Positions 20,180 through 27,721 of a DNA stretch of 38,336 bases are shown piece by piece (within the stretch, counting starts at the first letter, position 1; every line of letters begins with the position of its first letter). The position numbers and the translations under genes are program-made. The notes under the pieces are model-generated. The model was not told where the DNA came from. It was given only the letters and a program-made list of their open reading frames with translations, and did not search any database. The stretch covers positions 1 to 38,336 of the forward strand of contig JABDCY010000010.1 in the NCBI GenBank assembly GCA_013287855.1, read 5' to 3'. Source of the DNA: Candidatus Babelota bacterium. Its GTDB lineage: Bacteria > Babelota > Babeliae > Babelales > Vermiphilaceae.

Positions 20180-20863
20180 TTAGCGCCGTCTCTTTACGCC
20201 AATTTTGGGACACAAATCAGAGATTGCGCATTTTGAACAAAATGGAGAAATAGGAACACAGATATTCTGCCCCCACATGACCAGCAGATGATTATAATCA
20301 ATCCAATACTTGGCAGGCAAAAGCTCTTTTAATTGCTTCTCGGTTTCTTGCGGAGTTTTAGAGGTAACCAACCCTAAGCGGTTAGAAATACGATGCACAT
20401 GAGTATCAACGCACAAGGCTGGTATGCCAAACCCCTGTCCTAAGACCAAATTGGCCGTTTTTGGCCCTATACCTTTAATAGATACTAGCTCGTCCATGGT
20501 GGCTGGTACATTGCCCCCAAATCGATCAATGAGATCTTTACTGACCGAATGGAGCTGTATGGCTTTGCGGCGATAAAAGCCAACAGGGTAAATAAGGGAA
20601 GCAAGTTTTGGAATGGGGATTTTGAGGATTTCTTCTGGAGTTTTGGCGACTTCAAATAATTTAACGGAAGCAGGTAAAGAAACAGTATCGCGAGTACGTA
20701 AGGAAAGGAGGCAACTGATGAGAATAAGGAATGGGTCACGACCAAACTGTTTTACTATAAAAACAGAGGCAGGCTCGACCATATTTTTGGTTGCTTGGCG
20801 CAGGATAGTTATAATCCTTATCGCTCGGGCTTCTTGGTCAAGACCTGCCACAGATTTCTTCAT
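20180..20863 (-). CDS. nth: Endonuclease III
   Basis: HhH motif VSIKGIGPKTANLVLGQGFGIPALCVDTHVHRISNRLGL and Fe-S pattern CVPISPFCSKCAISDLC (C-x6-C-x2-C-x5-C). Confidence 0.95.
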   Translation of the reverse strand: MKKSVAGLDQEARAIRIITILRQATKNMVEPASVFIVKQFGRDPFLILISCLLSLRTRDTVSLPASVKLFEVAKTPEEILKIPIPKLASLIYPVGFYRRKAIQLHSVSKDLIDRFGGNVPATMDELVSIKGIGPKTANLVLGQGFGIPALCVDTHVHRISNRLGLVTSKTPQETEKQLKELLPAKYWIDYNHLLVMWGQNICVPISPFCSKCAISDLCPKIGVKRRR

Positions 20864-20910: not shown

Positions 20911-21012
20911 TTATGCACCACCTGGAGGTGCTACTGATAAAACAATGACAATAACTGCTACCAGCTTGCCAAATAGTTTGTGAAATGAAGTTATTCGAGA
21001 ATTTTTAACCAT
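20911..21012 (-). CDS. Micro-ORF, 33 aa, hydrophobic with C-terminal PPGGA; candidate signal peptide or leader peptide
   Basis: Manual translation MVKNSRITSFHKLFGKLVAVIVIVLSVAPPGGA*; RBS CAAGGAGTACCT-ATG; divergent from the 21150 gene. Confidence 0.6.
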   Translation of the reverse strand: MVKNSRITSFHKLFGKLVAVIVIVLSVAPPGGA

Positions 21013-21149
21013 AGGTACTCCTTGAATTAAACATGATAAATTAATGGTTTAAATAATTGTATAATTGGTATATATAATTACTTGAACAATAATTATTATA
21101 ACAAAGTAAGTATAAGCATAGCGTTTAGTAAAAGTAATGGCAATAAACT

Positions 21150-23909
21150 ATGATAAATTTTATTAAAGACATCACTCTTTCGTTAGAATATTTCATTGGA
21201 AGTTATCCAATTGTGCTCATCACTTCTTGCATCGCATTTGCGTTCAAAATTTTTATTGCCAGCAACCTGATCTTTAAACTTAAAAAATCTAACAACAGTC
21301 CTGCTTTCCGTTCATGGATCCTCTTAGTGGTCATGGTTATTAGCGCAAGTTTTGTCGATCTTTCGTGGATCATAAAAATGACTAAAGAAGTGTTCTTGCC
21401 TTCTTTAGATAGAAAAGTTGTTCTATTTTTTATACGAATAGCATGGGGCTTCATCGCAATTCAATATTTAGCATTATCCCTCTTCATTAAAAGCCTTCTT
21501 GAAAAAAATTATAAAATAAAAAAAGTTGATCTCATCCTTTCCATCGGCAACATTTGCATGTTCCTATTTTTTATTGGACTGGCAATATACGATCATAACT
21601 GTCCGTCAATGGAGATGAGACCTATCATAGAAGCAATAATACAAAAAATAGGCTTCACGTATGTACTTGCAAACTTAGCTTTTTCAAGCCTTGTTTTTGG
21701 CATCAAAATAATGAGATCCCATGAGTTGCCGAGAATTTTACGCAATCAGCTGAAAATTTTCTTGCGACTTTTGATAGCGCCTATTATTGTTTCCGAATTC
21801 ATTCAAATTTACCCGTTCGATTTTGCCCTAACCTGGATTACCAATAACTATACGGTAGTGACTTTAACTGCCTTGCTACTCACTTATACTATCTATCATT
21901 GTATGCGCAAAGTTATGGGACTCCGGTTCCTGAATTTCCAAAAGCAGGTTGAACTTCCTATCCATTTTAATTTTATTAAAGACTTTAAGGGCGTTCTTGA
22001 GCAGCTCAGCTTGGTCACCACTACTAAAGAAATTAACCACATTATCCAAAACTTTTTTAAAGAAGCATTCCACATTCCGCCAAACAGAACGCGCTTGTAT
22101 ATCCGCAACCTTGATGTAAGTAGCGGCAACACAAATCTGCAAGACCTTGCGCGAGAAGCGGTGATTGTTGAAAATTTCATTAATGCTCACACCGGCACCT
22201 GCTCCGTTAATCTGGTTCTACAAAAAACGAAAATATTAATCACCGATGAACTTGCATTCAGCAATTTTTATGAAGAACAAGCAGATTACCAAAAATTACT
22301 TACGTTCCTGGAAAGCATTAATGCCGACATTTTTATTCCTATTCATGAAGGGCAGGTCATTATTGCCTACATTATTGTTGAACGCTATGCGCGCATCGGC
22401 AGCTCGCCACATGGCAATGATTTATATAGCAATGTTGAACAAGATCAGATACAGGTATTTGCCAGTTATTTAGGCAATATTATTAACTTGCTCCAGCATC
22501 GCAACCTGCACTCGCTTATTCAGCTAGAAAAAGAACTCAAAGAAGAGCTGTTCCATAAACACCAAGAAATTAATCAGTACAAAGAAAGTATGCGGCTGTT
22601 TTTGAACCACGCACAAGATGAACGCAAAATTGGCATCATGTTTTATAAAAACCGTTCATTTGTATTTGGCAACCAAACCGCCAAAGAAATGGTGGGCATC
22701 AATGTCAACACACATCAAGGTCATCCTATTTCAAAAATCCTTAAAGAGTTGGCTCAGCAAGTGTTGGAATACAAGGCACCGCAACTTATGTTTGCTCATG
22801 ATGCTGCCGGCAACAAACTGGTGCTTTCTGGCATCCTTAATTTGGAACAAAATAACGTCATCATCACCTGCTATTATCCTGAAGTTTCCGATCTCATTAA
22901 GCGCAAAATTGATCTGCTCAAAGATCCAACCAAGTGGGATTATCTACTATATTTAGAAACGACACAGTCGGGCAAACTGATCAATCAACTTATTCCGGGA
23001 TCCGGTGAAATATTGCTGAATTTTAAAATTGAGCTGCTTAAAATTGCGCTCAGCAAAAAGGCAATCTTGCTCAATATGCCTGACGAGGATTTAAAAGCGA
23101 CCGTTGAATTGTTGCATCATGTGAGTCTGCGAGAAAACTTGCACATGTTGACCTTGCAAGGCCCCAGCAAGAATATGGACGTGGCCATTAAACTATTTGG
23201 CATCAACCCGATTTTTGGTATGAACACCGAAGGCAACGTGCCATTACTTGAAAAACTCAATAATATCGGGACACTATTTATAGAAAATATTCATTATCTC
23301 GACCTTGAGACACAGGAATATTTGGCAGAATTTATGAAATATGGTGTGTATCGGGTGTTCAAAAGTGATCAAAAAGCTACGAGCAATGTGCGCATCCTCT
23401 GCTCAACTACGCTGAATCTGCAGAACCTTGTACAAGATGGCAAATTCTTCCAAGCATTATTTAATGAGCTTAAAGCAACGAGCCTTGTTATGCCATCACT
23501 GCTTACTTTACCAGAATCTGAGCTCAGTGATCTTACCGTCGGCCTTACCGAACAAGCCATCAAAACAAATACGTTCAAAAATCTGCTTGAACTCACTGAC
23601 AAAGAAACTAAACGTCTCTTGGATGCCCGCCCTGCAAGTATTTCAGAACTACGCACCAAAATTCAGCAACTGCTTATTAATAAATCAAAGAAAAATCAGA
23701 TATATCAAGAATCTGAATTTGATCCTGCCTATGATATTACCGATCCAGAATTGGCCGAAGCAGCCCGCCTTGGCAAGTATGCACTGAAAGATCCGCGCAT
23801 CATGTCATTGCTGTGGAGCAAATTTAATAATCAGAATAAAATTGCAACCTTCTTGGGCGTCAATCGGTCTTCGGTGAATCGCCGATGCAAAGAATATAAT
23901 TTGCTATAA
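21150..23909 (+). CDS. 7-TM/GAF/PAS membrane regulator with degenerate sigma54-activator AAA+ domain and Fis-type HTH (paralog 1)
   Basis: Seven N-terminal hydrophobic segments; GAF-like and PAS-like regions; GTLFIENIHYLDLETQEYLAEFMKYG and VRILCSTTLNLQNLVQDGKF match bEBP Walker B and sensor I regions; C-terminal NQNKIATFLGVNRSSVNRRCKEYNLL is a Fis-type HTH. Confidence 0.85.
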   Translation: MINFIKDITLSLEYFIGSYPIVLITSCIAFAFKIFIASNLIFKLKKSNNSPAFRSWILLVVMVISASFVDLSWIIKMTKEVFLPSLDRKVVLFFIRIAWGFIAIQYLALSLFIKSLLEKNYKIKKVDLILSIGNICMFLFFIGLAIYDHNCPSMEMRPIIEAIIQKIGFTYVLANLAFSSLVFGIKIMRSHELPRILRNQLKIFLRLLIAPIIVSEFIQIYPFDFALTWITNNYTVVTLTALLLTYTIYHCMRKVMGLRFLNFQKQVELPIHFNFIKDFKGVLEQLSLVTTTKEINHIIQNFFKEAFHIPPNRTRLYIRNLDVSSGNTNLQDLAREAVIVENFINAHTGTCSVNLVLQKTKILITDELAFSNFYEEQADYQKLLTFLESINADIFIPIHEGQVIIAYIIVERYARIGSSPHGNDLYSNVEQDQIQVFASYLGNIINLLQHRNLHSLIQLEKELKEELFHKHQEINQYKESMRLFLNHAQDERKIGIMFYKNRSFVFGNQTAKEMVGINVNTHQGHPISKILKELAQQVLEYKAPQLMFAHDAAGNKLVLSGILNLEQNNVIITCYYPEVSDLIKRKIDLLKDPTKWDYLLYLETTQSGKLINQLIPGSGEILLNFKIELLKIALSKKAILLNMPDEDLKATVELLHHVSLRENLHMLTLQGPSKNMDVAIKLFGINPIFGMNTEGNVPLLEKLNNIGTLFIENIHYLDLETQEYLAEFMKYGVYRVFKSDQKATSNVRILCSTTLNLQNLVQDGKFFQALFNELKATSLVMPSLLTLPESELSDLTVGLTEQAIKTNTFKNLLELTDKETKRLLDARPASISELRTKIQQLLINKSKKNQIYQESEFDPAYDITDPELAEAARLGKYALKDPRIMSLLWSKFNNQNKIATFLGVNRSSVNRRCKEYNLL

Positions 23910-23913
23910 AAAT

Positions 23914-23940
23914 AGCCGCTGAAATATGCGGCTTTTTTTT
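23914..23940 (+). terminator. Rho-independent terminator
   Basis: agccgc-tgaaatat-gcggctttttttt. Confidence 0.9.
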
Positions 23941-23974
23941 GTATGGTGCACTTATCAAAAGCATGATAGAAAGA

Positions 23975-24688
23975 TTAAGTTTCAAAAATTAGATAGTTCC
24001 TTATTGCCTCAATCGTTCTCTCTGAAATTCCAGTATTTTGCACAAAAGAATCAACATCAAAATCCATCGCTCTAATTTTTTTGAATAATTCTTTTGCTAC
24101 CTGCTCTACTTTAAGATAGCTTTCTTCATCACTAATTTCTGGAAGATGTGTAACCCTTTCATCACCGAGACTCTCGCCCAACTTCTGTACAATGTACCTG
24201 AATTCCCACAGCCAAAAATACTCCTCGAGAATTTCTTTGAATTTCTGCCATGTAGTAAATTTCTCGCAAACGACAAAATCATCATTGGACGGTACAAAAA
24301 GCGGTATTTGATTGTCTTCTTTAGCTGCATCATTGCAGGTAATCTTTTCATTTACTTCTTGTCCTTGCATGTGTTTTTCCGCGATATCCGAATGTAGAGT
24401 GCGTAACACTTCAACTTCCTGCTGAATGCGGATTTCTCTAATAAAAGTTTCGGCAACTGATGTTGCCTTGTGCATCTGCTGATTTCGTGCAGTCGCATAT
24501 AAGAACTCCATTAACGCAAGATCTTTCTGCTCGTATGCTTTAAGCAACTGTAAAACCAGTTGGTTTTCTGGTTTCTCTATTAACTCAGTAGAATCTTGAA
24601 TATTAGAATTCACTTTATGAAAAGAAGTTAAAAGTGCAATCAATAACAACATGTTGAAAAATTCTTTCACACGAAAGTACCGAAACAT
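23975..24688 (-). CDS. Secreted protein of unknown function
   Basis: Signal-like N-terminus FFNMLLLIALLTSFHKVNS; helical, charged body. Confidence 0.65.
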   Translation of the reverse strand: MFRYFRVKEFFNMLLLIALLTSFHKVNSNIQDSTELIEKPENQLVLQLLKAYEQKDLALMEFLYATARNQQMHKATSVAETFIREIRIQQEVEVLRTLHSDIAEKHMQGQEVNEKITCNDAAKEDNQIPLFVPSNDDFVVCEKFTTWQKFKEILEEYFWLWEFRYIVQKLGESLGDERVTHLPEISDEESYLKVEQVAKELFKKIRAMDFDVDSFVQNTGISERTIEAIRNYLIFET

Positions 24689-24735
24689 AGTTTGCTTTCA
24701 GAAATATTGTTGCAAATAGCGTTTAGTAATGTCTA

Positions 24736-24767
24736 ATAAAAAACCTACCTTAACATCGGTAGGTTTT
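24736..24767 (-). terminator. Rho-independent terminator downstream of the 28 aa micro-ORF
   Basis: Minus strand: aaaacctacc-gatgttaa-ggtaggttttttatt. Confidence 0.85.
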
Positions 24768-24792
24768 CTATTTCATATATCTATAATTATTT

Positions 24793-24879
24793 TTAGTGGG
24801 CAGAGCCATCAGGTGGCCAGCGGAACATGGAACGCACGCTGGTCCAGATAGATCCCATCATTTTGAAGCATTTTAACAT
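24793..24879 (-). CDS. Micro-ORF, 28 aa, C-terminal PPDGSAH; candidate signal peptide or leader peptide
   Basis: Manual translation MLKCFKMMGSIWTSVRSMFRWPPDGSAH*; RBS-like TTAAGGGGAAGTTT-ATG; own terminator; divergent from the 24968 gene. Confidence 0.6.
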   Translation of the reverse strand: MLKCFKMMGSIWTSVRSMFRWPPDGSAH

Positions 24880-24967
24880 AAACTTCCCCTTAACAATTTG
24901 CAAGAATTTTAATACCTTACTTGCTAGGGTAGTATAATATTCCGGAATAGAAAGTGCAATAAAAAAC

Positions 24968-27721
24968 ATGCTCGATATCGTAAAAAATCTTTATACACTA
25001 TTTAATTGCCCACAATTTTTATTGTTCGCTATCCTTTTTTCCGTGGGTATAAAATGTTACTTTCTTCGTCTGCTTATTCCCCAGGGGTTGCGATTTCGTG
25101 CTGCTCTTAAACCATGGATGCTTTTGCTCGGGGTAGTCATTGGTTCCATGTTTGGTGATGTTGCCTGGTTGCTTAAATTAATTCGCATATTATTTATTCC
25201 CGACATTCCCTACCCATTACTTATCACCGTCGTGCGCATTTCCTGGGGGCTTTTAATTATTCAATATCAATCACTCGGGTTTTTTATCGAAAGTTTGGCT
25301 GAGAAAGATTATCATCTCACTGCATGGCGCAAAGTACTATTTGGTATCAGTGCAGTATTTTGTTGTTACTTTTTGTTTATCGCATTTTTTGATAATAATC
25401 TCACCGATTTTTATGAACGCAATGTGGCATTACTCTTGCCTACTCATCTGGCACCATTAGAAATTCGCATGTTCCGGTATACGGTCCTCTATTTACTCAA
25501 CCTCATTACGCTACCAAGTCTTTTTTTAACCATCATAAAAATCCGGCGCGAGAAACTTCCCAAAATCCTCAAAAAACAACTCAAGATTTTCATGCTCTGG
25601 TTCATGGTGCCCTATCTGATCACCGAGTTTCTCATCGCTATGCACAGCTACTATGCAAGCCTGCATGCACATACCTATTCTATTGTTGGTATCTCGACCA
25701 TACTGCTTTCCTATGCCGTTTATTATTGCCTGCGCAAAGTGCTGCATCTGCGCTTCCTCAACGCTGAACAACGTATACCATCGGTAAACAATACTACCTT
25801 CATCAATGAATTTAAAAATGTGCTTGAGCAACTGAGTCATGCAACGAGTGAGCAAGAAATAGAACGTAGTGTGCAAGCGTTCTTTAAAGAAACCTTTAGC
25901 ATCGGTATGCAACGCACACATCTGTATGTTCGCCCAATCCACACAGAAATTAATCACGCACATCACTCGTCTGAACGCTGTAAAACCGAAAGTCTTATTG
26001 AAAATTTCGTCACAACTTACGACACCACAAGCGCACTCGCACAATTTTTGCGCACATCAAAAGTAGTGATCCGCGATGAAATTGAGTTTAATAGCTTCTA
26101 TCAAGAAGATGAGCTGAGCAAAGTATGTATCCGCGCACTTGATGCGGTCAACGCTGATGTGTTCCTGCCTATTTATCAGCAGCAAACTATTGTTGCTTAT
26201 ATTATTGTTGAACAATTCTCACGACCCCAAGAATTTTTTGATCTTGGTGAACGAGACCAAATGGTAGTATTTGCCAACTACTTGAGCAATGTGATCAACC
26301 TGCTGCAAAATCGCAATTTAGGGTCGCTGCTGCAACAAGAACGGGAACTACGAGAAGAATTGTACAACAAGCAACAAGAAATAAATCAATATCGCGAGTG
26401 CATGCAGGCATTCATCCGCAGTGCGCGTCAGAAAGAAATTGGCATTCTTTTTTATAAAAACCGTCGATTTATTTTTGGCAATCAGACGGCAAAAGAACTC
26501 ATCGGTATCAACATCAACACGCATGAAGGTCATGCACTCACCAAAGCTATGAAAGAGCTTGCAACCCAAGTGCTCAATTACAAAACCTCCAAAACAATTT
26601 TTGCGCATGATACTGCGGGCAATAAGTTAGTCATCTCCGGCATCCTTAATCTTGAACACAACAACGTTATCATCACCGTGCATTATCCAGAAATTTCAGA
26701 CATTATTCGCAAGAAAATACATCTGCTCAAAGATCCAACCAAATGGGATTACTTGCTGTATCTTGAAACAACACAATCGGGCAAATTGATCAATCAAATG
26801 ATTCCTGGTTCTGGTGAAATTTTGCTTAATTTTAAAATCGAGCTGCTCAAAATCGCGCTCCACAGAAAAGCACTTATTTTGACGATTCCTGAGCAAGATC
26901 TTTTACCCATGGTTGAAATCTTGCATCATATTAGTCTGCGAGAAAATCTACAGACGCTTAACCTCACTTCAACGTCCAATCCTATTGATATTGCCGTAAA
27001 ATTATTTGGCATAAATCCTATTTTAGGCTTGCGTCCAACTTCCAGCACACAACCTTTACTTGAAAAACTTAACGGCACCGGCACCCTATTTATGCACAAT
27101 ATTCATTTCTTAAGTCTCGAAGTACAGGAATATCTCGCTGAATTTATTAAATTCGGTTTTTATCGGATATTCAGAAGCGACCAAAAAATGAGCAGCGATG
27201 TGCGCATTATCTGTTCTACCGATTACAACCTTGATACCCTGGTACAAGAAGGGAAACTCTCTACGCACTTATTCAATGAGCTAAAAACTACTACTCTGCA
27301 CATGCCATCATTGGAAACGTTGCCCGAAAGCGAGCTCAATTCGCTCACGGATGGATTCACTGAGCAAGCAATTCGCACCGATACGTTCAAAAATATTCTT
27401 GAGCTCAGCGAGCGAGAAAAAGATAAACTGATCAGTTCTCGTCCTGCGAGCTTGCAAGAACTCAAAACCAAAGTGCAACAAGTCTTGATTCAAAAATCTA
27501 AGAAAACTAATATTTATCATGAAACACAATTTGATCCTGCTTACAACATTAATACGCCAGATCTCACGCATGCTGCTCGCCTTGGCAAACATGCACTCAA
27601 GGACCCAAATATCATGGCAATGTTGTGGAACAAGTTCAAAAATCAAAATCAGATTGCGGCATTTTTGGGGGTAAATCGATCTTCAGTTAATCGGCGATGC
27701 AAAGATTATAATTTGCAGTAA
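24968..27721 (+). CDS. 7-TM/GAF/PAS membrane regulator with degenerate sigma54-activator AAA+ domain and Fis-type HTH (paralog 2)
   Basis: Paralog of 21150-23909; near-identical block LLKDPTKWDYLLYLETTQSGKLINQMIPGSGEILLNFKIELLKIAL; C-terminal NQNQIAAFLGVNRSSVNRRCKDYNLQ. Confidence 0.85.
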   Translation: MLDIVKNLYTLFNCPQFLLFAILFSVGIKCYFLRLLIPQGLRFRAALKPWMLLLGVVIGSMFGDVAWLLKLIRILFIPDIPYPLLITVVRISWGLLIIQYQSLGFFIESLAEKDYHLTAWRKVLFGISAVFCCYFLFIAFFDNNLTDFYERNVALLLPTHLAPLEIRMFRYTVLYLLNLITLPSLFLTIIKIRREKLPKILKKQLKIFMLWFMVPYLITEFLIAMHSYYASLHAHTYSIVGISTILLSYAVYYCLRKVLHLRFLNAEQRIPSVNNTTFINEFKNVLEQLSHATSEQEIERSVQAFFKETFSIGMQRTHLYVRPIHTEINHAHHSSERCKTESLIENFVTTYDTTSALAQFLRTSKVVIRDEIEFNSFYQEDELSKVCIRALDAVNADVFLPIYQQQTIVAYIIVEQFSRPQEFFDLGERDQMVVFANYLSNVINLLQNRNLGSLLQQERELREELYNKQQEINQYRECMQAFIRSARQKEIGILFYKNRRFIFGNQTAKELIGININTHEGHALTKAMKELATQVLNYKTSKTIFAHDTAGNKLVISGILNLEHNNVIITVHYPEISDIIRKKIHLLKDPTKWDYLLYLETTQSGKLINQMIPGSGEILLNFKIELLKIALHRKALILTIPEQDLLPMVEILHHISLRENLQTLNLTSTSNPIDIAVKLFGINPILGLRPTSSTQPLLEKLNGTGTLFMHNIHFLSLEVQEYLAEFIKFGFYRIFRSDQKMSSDVRIICSTDYNLDTLVQEGKLSTHLFNELKTTTLHMPSLETLPESELNSLTDGFTEQAIRTDTFKNILELSEREKDKLISSRPASLQELKTKVQQVLIQKSKKTNIYHETQFDPAYNINTPDLTHAARLGKHALKDPNIMAMLWNKFKNQNQIAAFLGVNRSSVNRRCKDYNLQ

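Follow-up and report, generated by a model that had tools for sequence, protein, structure and literature searches.

Divergent micro-genes and seven-helix regulators as candidate peptide pheromone and receptor modules in Candidatus Dependentiae

Members of the Candidatus Dependentiae (TM6/Babelota) are bacteria that live inside protists. We analysed a stretch of 38,336 nucleotides (nt) from a metagenome-assembled genome of one of them (Candidatus Babelota bacterium, assembly GCA_013287855.1, contig JABDCY010000010.1, positions 1 to 38,336; hereafter the window), in which each of two large regulator genes has a very short open reading frame (ORF) diverging from it. The first regulator, which we call receptor 1 (plus strand, 21150..23909), has 919 amino acids (aa); the second, receptor 2 (plus strand, 24968..27721, 917 aa), is its downstream paralog and belongs to a second class. 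Peptide gene 1, MVKNSRITSFHKLFGKLVAVIVIVLSVAPPGGA, lies on the minus strand at 20911..21012, 137 nt upstream of receptor 1, and peptide gene 2, MLKCFKMMGSIWTSVRSMFRWPPDGSAH, on the same strand at 24793..24879, 88 nt upstream of receptor 2. Both have strong Shine-Dalgarno (SD) sequences, AAGGAG at 21018..21023 (plus-strand coordinates) and AAGGGG at 24886..24891. A first-pass annotation of this DNA had called these two minus-strand ORFs with good ribosome-binding sites, and we confirm their coordinates, strand and translations. The first product resembles a signal sequence and would be a precursor whose PPGGA tail faces outward, and the second carries a class-2 tail of the form [RKN][WYF]PP. 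Relatives back both genes, and the position, orientation and architecture of the first are conserved among them. A Pfam search of the micro-proteins of the window gave no credible match.

The receptor family is present in 69 of the 101 genomes of the phylum that we searched, frequently in tandem pairs with a gap of about 300 bp, and 89 non-redundant copies make up our receptor set. Upstream of 83 of these 89 lies a divergent micro-ORF, usually led by an SD and typically starting 60-150 nt from the receptor; 72 of the micro-ORFs contain the dipeptide PP. The candidates behind this count were picked by score with about a dozen manual overrides, so we also give an automatic count made without manual choice. 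In this count, 58 of the 87 receptor upstreams hold a divergent ORF with SD and ATG that is 16-100 aa long and has PP among its 12 C-terminal residues. The number averages 0.28 over 40 dinucleotide-shuffle runs (maximum 2/87) and is 0 for the receptor strand of the same DNA. We further collected 165 intergenic SD+ATG ORFs from 550 kb of loci. Because these loci were chosen for their receptors, the roughly 78 kb of intergenic DNA in them lies close to receptors and does not sample genomes at random. A PP C-terminus is found in 64 of the 165 ORFs, and all 64 adjoin a receptor (58 are those counted directly; six are extra tandem copies or stand beside partial or second receptors). Each ORF taken singly is short, as a chance or artefactual ORF would be, yet these counts refute that explanation statistically, and we give it practically no weight.

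The pairing recurs in two complete genomes (G055 and G022) and in G073, each with a receptor and a peptide gene; in G055 the receptor has a divergent gene for a putative secreted peptide. The scan of genome contigs yielded three loci only. The first-pass annotation had proposed to look for a divergent PP-bearing ORF of fewer than 40 aa beside homologous regulators. Such ORFs are indeed there across the phylum, including distant versions with signal peptides and tandem units, and neither of the contrary outcomes that it named, the lack of a conserved micro-ORF beside homologs or frame-disrupting substitutions, was seen. One tandem peptide pair gives a ratio of nonsynonymous to synonymous substitution rates (dN/dS) of 0.39 over 28 codons; this ratio is otherwise uninformative, because the orthologs are too diverged. 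What fell away is the F-x-K-[LM]-x-G-x-[LI] core with fixed spacing from G to PP that had been read from the two window peptides: tested on all relatives, it is not a family feature, and what is general is the architecture alone, namely a basic N-terminus, a hydrophobic stretch and a PP tail.

The precursors come in two formats. Short ones measure about 20-40 aa: a basic N-terminus leads into a hydrophobic stretch, and a PP-bearing tail (PPxG-type) with a median length of 7 aa points outward. The mean charge of these short peptides is +1.6 before the helix and -0.3 after it. Long ones consist of a signal peptide, called by eye from a basic start, a hydrophobic core and an AxA-like site, and of a mature part that often holds tandem units: [DE]DFPPMG three times (DDFPPMG..DDFPPMG..DEFPPMG, locus L083), PTPPxRY five times (L092), TKPGPDVPSF three times (L093), LQCPPC three times (L088), N[MV]PP[YF] three times (L125), ALHMPPGF twice (L084) and SVFPPIS twice (L032). 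At other loci the gene itself is multiplied, with two or three tandem precursor genes per locus (L016, L113, L091, L130). By analogy, multi-unit secreted precursors and multiplied genes resemble peptide pheromone genes and would be unexpected for leader peptides or accessory subunits. They bear directly on the main rival explanation, in which the micro-proteins would be membrane-bound regulatory subunits of the regulator, acting in the same cell without being released, as MgrB does for PhoQ. Basic N-termini and a hydrophobic stretch would suit such subunits, and the short forms could persist as signal anchors; signal-peptide precursors with 2-5 tandem tail motifs, together with the tandem genes, point instead to several released units, and no convincing transmembrane helix is seen in class-2 forms such as MCIKMNFLFVLKNFFRRWPPSD. 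On balance we find this explanation unlikely.

Some variants stand apart. At L091 (genome G051) and L130 (G080), three tandem precursor genes lie by one receptor and have near-identical C-termini (SCVKKG; C[EA]HGVPPYEE). The peptide genes of L033 and L086 (G084), beside distant receptors, have no PP tail and share a C-terminal WVKEQRKAK.. segment, and one genus combines shorter receptors (about 796 aa) with Ser/Gly/Thr-rich putative secreted peptides (L076, L077, L078).

Peptides and receptors also vary together. The downstream paralogs form one clade (10 rows, support 99) whose peptides bear the distinct [RKN][WYF]PP signature, which supports the earlier proposal that the whole module was duplicated. 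We compared a downstream group of 11 peptides, those of this clade plus those of three fast-evolving downstream copies outside it, with the others. A basic residue or Asn stands two before PP in 9/11 of the group vs 2/44 elsewhere (P = 4e-7), and an aromatic residue directly before PP in 9/11 vs 10/44 (P = 5e-4). On the receptor side, where class-specific positions, like the peptide choices, involved some manual selection, the seven strictest class-separating positions of 919 fall without exception in the outer half of the seven-transmembrane (7-TM) bundle, and outer positions still dominate at looser cut-offs (e.g. 10 outer, 5 inner, 1 cytosolic). In partial Mantel tests, from which phylogeny is not fully removed, the peptide core correlates with the outer 7-TM half given the cytosolic part (r = 0.25, 0/2000 permutations) and not with the cytosolic part given the outer half (r = 0.04, P = 0.29); without the downstream paralogs, the correlation of peptide and outer half is 0.17 (P = 0.006). 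A tandem pair in genome G011 presents the same picture in miniature: its cytosolic domains are 92-98% identical, its 7-TM domain 69%, and its peptides are unlike.

The 7-TM domain and the peptide appear to behave as one specificity unit, with or without gene conversion, and the covariation of the peptide with the outer 7-TM half lends support to the peptide/receptor pairing proposed at the outset. A stable complex between a membrane-bound subunit and its regulator would give this covariation as well. The same result touches the idea that the micro-proteins serve as small toxins, as antimicrobials or as peptides aimed at the host, with the adjacent regulator merely controlling them. Short hydrophobic peptides can be membrane-active, and protein export is extensive in Dependentiae (signal sequences occur in 44% of the proteins of Chromulinavorax; PMC6561590). 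What covaries with the peptide, however, is the outer sensor face of the receptor and not its DNA-binding or cytosolic part, and the tail is tiny and proline-rich, which makes a toxin or host-directed role decidedly improbable to us.

Receptor 1 is composed of a 7-TM domain (aa 1-262; plus strand, 21150..21935), a GAF-like region (263-470), a helical/PAS-like region (471-620), a degenerate sigma-54-type AAA region (621-870) and a Fis-type helix-turn-helix (HTH, 871-919). This layout draws on Pfam/NCBIfam, AlphaFold, Foldseek and the loss of catalytic motifs; its boundaries were placed by hand from the AlphaFold model and the hits, and the GAF and PAS labels are our own, read off the model with no Pfam hit behind them. 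Sequence profiles recognise the sigma-54-type AAA region and, weakly, the Fis-type HTH. The whole-receptor AlphaFold model, made with 89 relatives (predicted local distance difference test, pLDDT, 88.6; predicted template modelling score, pTM, 0.61), has an N-terminal helix and seven long helices followed by the GAF-like, helical/PAS-like, AAA and HTH regions, and its Foldseek matches in the PDB are NtrX, PspF and FleQ. Modelled alone, the 7-TM domain reaches a pLDDT of 90.3 and a pTM of 0.87. Its top 50 PDB fold matches are G-protein-coupled receptors (GPCRs) and one rhodopsin; because these matches are weak (E 0.0035-0.026, TM-score about 0.4-0.6), we claim a similar topology and no homology to GPCRs or rhodopsin. 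No Pfam family matched the domain in 55 members. Inner loops carry 2.5-4.1 Lys+Arg and outer loops 0.2-1.2, and these positive-inside counts place the N-terminus outside.

In the AAA region, Walker A, the acidic pair of Walker B and GAFTGA are lost in 89/89 receptors, and RpoN (sigma-54) was found in 0/86 genomes, with four named controls positive and the window's own genome 68% complete. Because of these losses, the AAA part appears to be a dead scaffold, and the protein apparently cannot work as an ordinary sigma-54 activator. A search of the receptors for HisKA/HATPase gave no match; they have a DNA-binding HTH instead.

The DNA around the peptide genes bears on another alternative, already raised in the first-pass annotation, namely that the micro-ORFs are regulatory leader peptides; they would control the downstream gene through ribosome stalling at their PP motif. 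PPG, PPD and PPE can stall ribosomes, and nth (endonuclease III, HhH-GPD match; minus strand, 20180..20863), which lies beyond peptide gene 1 and is not itself part of the system, follows it at 48 nt in the same direction. Peptide gene 2, however, ends in a strong intrinsic terminator just 3' of it (minus strand, 24740..24767; -20.2 kcal/mol, z -6.2), and leader-peptide attenuation is unlikely for this reason. The terminator consists of a stem-loop with TTTTTT behind it on the minus strand; a pattern scan places the stem on the plus strand. The genes beyond also differ between the modules, many tails read PPV, PPI, PPM or PPA, which are not strong stallers, and leader peptides would leave the repeats, the signal peptides and the covariation of tail and receptor unexplained. 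This alternative is thus disfavoured, and we hold it to be very improbable. Between peptide genes and receptors, the words that stand out in 81 intergenic regions are the SD of the peptide (AGGAGT is among the most enriched), the -10-like AGTATAAT and AAGATCAATA near the receptor start, and no others; in the window, AGTATAAT contains the -10 box of receptor 2 (TATAAT, plus strand, 24933..24938). The enrichment of AAGATCAATA is strong a few bases 5' of the receptor start codon (e.g. L099, L100, L104, L105), with AAGATCAA present in 12/81 regions against 0.2 expected, and the receptors there are often without an SD.

Several points weigh against reading the modules as signal and receptor. Six receptors have no recognisable peptide; some class-2 peptides are only weakly hydrophobic, which makes their route of export doubtful; and a search of the intergenic regions for a shared operator dyad found none. 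In the G011 pair, the synonymous rate dS is raised in the 7-TM part (0.78 vs 0.24), which shows that the contrast seen there is partly due to gene conversion of the cytosolic region. The manual selection and the remaining phylogenetic signal mentioned above count on the same side. With all this in the balance, we think that each module probably consists of a peptide pheromone gene and its receptor, a secreted signal being sensed by a membrane-bound one-component regulator.

How might such a module operate? We envision that the micro-ORF is translated into a short precursor. Engaging the Sec pathway, it would keep its N-terminus on the cytosolic side while its C-terminus reaches the periplasm. 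The proline-rich tail would then be cut free by a housekeeping protease, for which signal peptidase I and an intramembrane protease of the RseP type are the candidates; signal peptidase is present in 29/29 genomes and M50 (RseP-type) proteases in 27/29. Minimal precursors would yield one tail of about 5-8 residues, and larger ones, with their signal peptide, several repeated units. The tail would bind the receptor whose gene diverges from its own, at the outer half of the seven-helix bundle, and the signal would pass through the GAF-like and the catalytically dead sigma-54-type AAA domains to the Fis-type HTH, which would alter transcription without sigma-54, probably including that from the shared intergenic promoter. 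Duplication would have produced two parallel channels, the downstream one using [RKN][WYF]PP peptides.

Other features complete the locus. In many relatives (L039, L043, L047, L049, L051, L057, L064), too, nth or an nth-like frame comes after the peptide gene, and this place beside nth is apparently the ancestral location of the module. Receptor 1 and peptide gene 2 are separated by the gene for a 237-aa protein without Pfam match (minus strand, 23975-24688). Many relatives have a gap of only about 300 bp between their two receptors, so this gene was probably inserted in the window's lineage alone. A bidirectional terminator-like hairpin directly follows receptor 1 (23914-23933). Rfam finds two tRNAs only in the window, thus no riboswitch or known RNA element.

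The logic of these pairs is familiar from elsewhere. In the Rgg/SHP systems of streptococci, a tiny hydrophobic precursor is encoded divergently beside a one-component regulator, and the signal is thought to be its C-terminal tail. As there, or in other RRNPP systems, a small hydrophobic peptide gene adjoins a receptor gene. Rgg, however, is a cytosolic receptor of the tetratricopeptide repeat (TPR) type that binds re-imported peptide, and RRNPP proteins have an N-terminal HTH, whereas here a 7-TM domain, a GAF-like region, a pseudo-AAA and a C-terminal Fis-type HTH go with PP-tailed peptides in a Gram-negative-type phylum. A search for the HTH_3 family in the window's own genome gave nothing useful. 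ComX/ComP and Agr (AgrD/AgrC) combine a variable sensor part, a conserved cytosolic part and an adjacent fast-changing peptide gene, and our modules likewise match a membrane receptor to an adjacent variable peptide gene. In contrast, ComP and AgrC are histidine kinases that work with response regulators, and their systems have processing enzymes of their own (ComQ, AgrB). Our receptors are not kinases, and no enzyme dedicated to processing or modification was found near the peptide genes in the window, where the flanks are nth, the 237-aa protein and the receptors.

The similarity in AAA and Fis-type HTH links the receptors to sigma-54 activators (NtrC, PspF, FleQ, NtrX) and to TyrR, but the catalytic motifs are lost, RpoN was not found in the 86 genomes and the N-terminus is a 7-TM domain. 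With bacterial 7TM receptors (7TMR-DISM, 7TMR-HD, LytS/BtsS) and GPCRs they share seven helices and a cytosolic output, but not a Pfam match in the 55 members or a significant fold match (E > 0.003). The best explanation, by analogy, is that the pairs would work like Rgg/SHP or ComX/ComP while being homologous to neither. Although the logic itself is known from those two systems, our tests place neither the peptide nor the receptor in a known peptide-signalling family.

Our search of the open literature (open-licence PMC) turned up nothing on peptide-based signalling by Dependentiae, and the genome paper of Chromulinavorax destructans states that quorum-sensing mechanisms are absent (PMC6561590). 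We lean towards the view that the modules represent unrecognised, phylum-wide peptide signalling in Gram-negative-type intracellular bacteria, in which a GPCR-shaped receptor-transcription factor built on a dead sigma-54 activator would read the proline-rich peptide encoded divergently beside it, and duplication would give single genomes orthogonal channels. If so, the scaffold of a sigma-54 activator would have been recycled after sigma-54 was lost, and nature would offer numerous seven-helix receptors, each matched to its peptide, in which the evolution of specificity could be studied and from which orthogonal sensors could be built. Above all, if the pairs signal, a whole phylum of protist parasites and symbionts would have peptide communication, plausibly timing replication, division or exit in the host cell.

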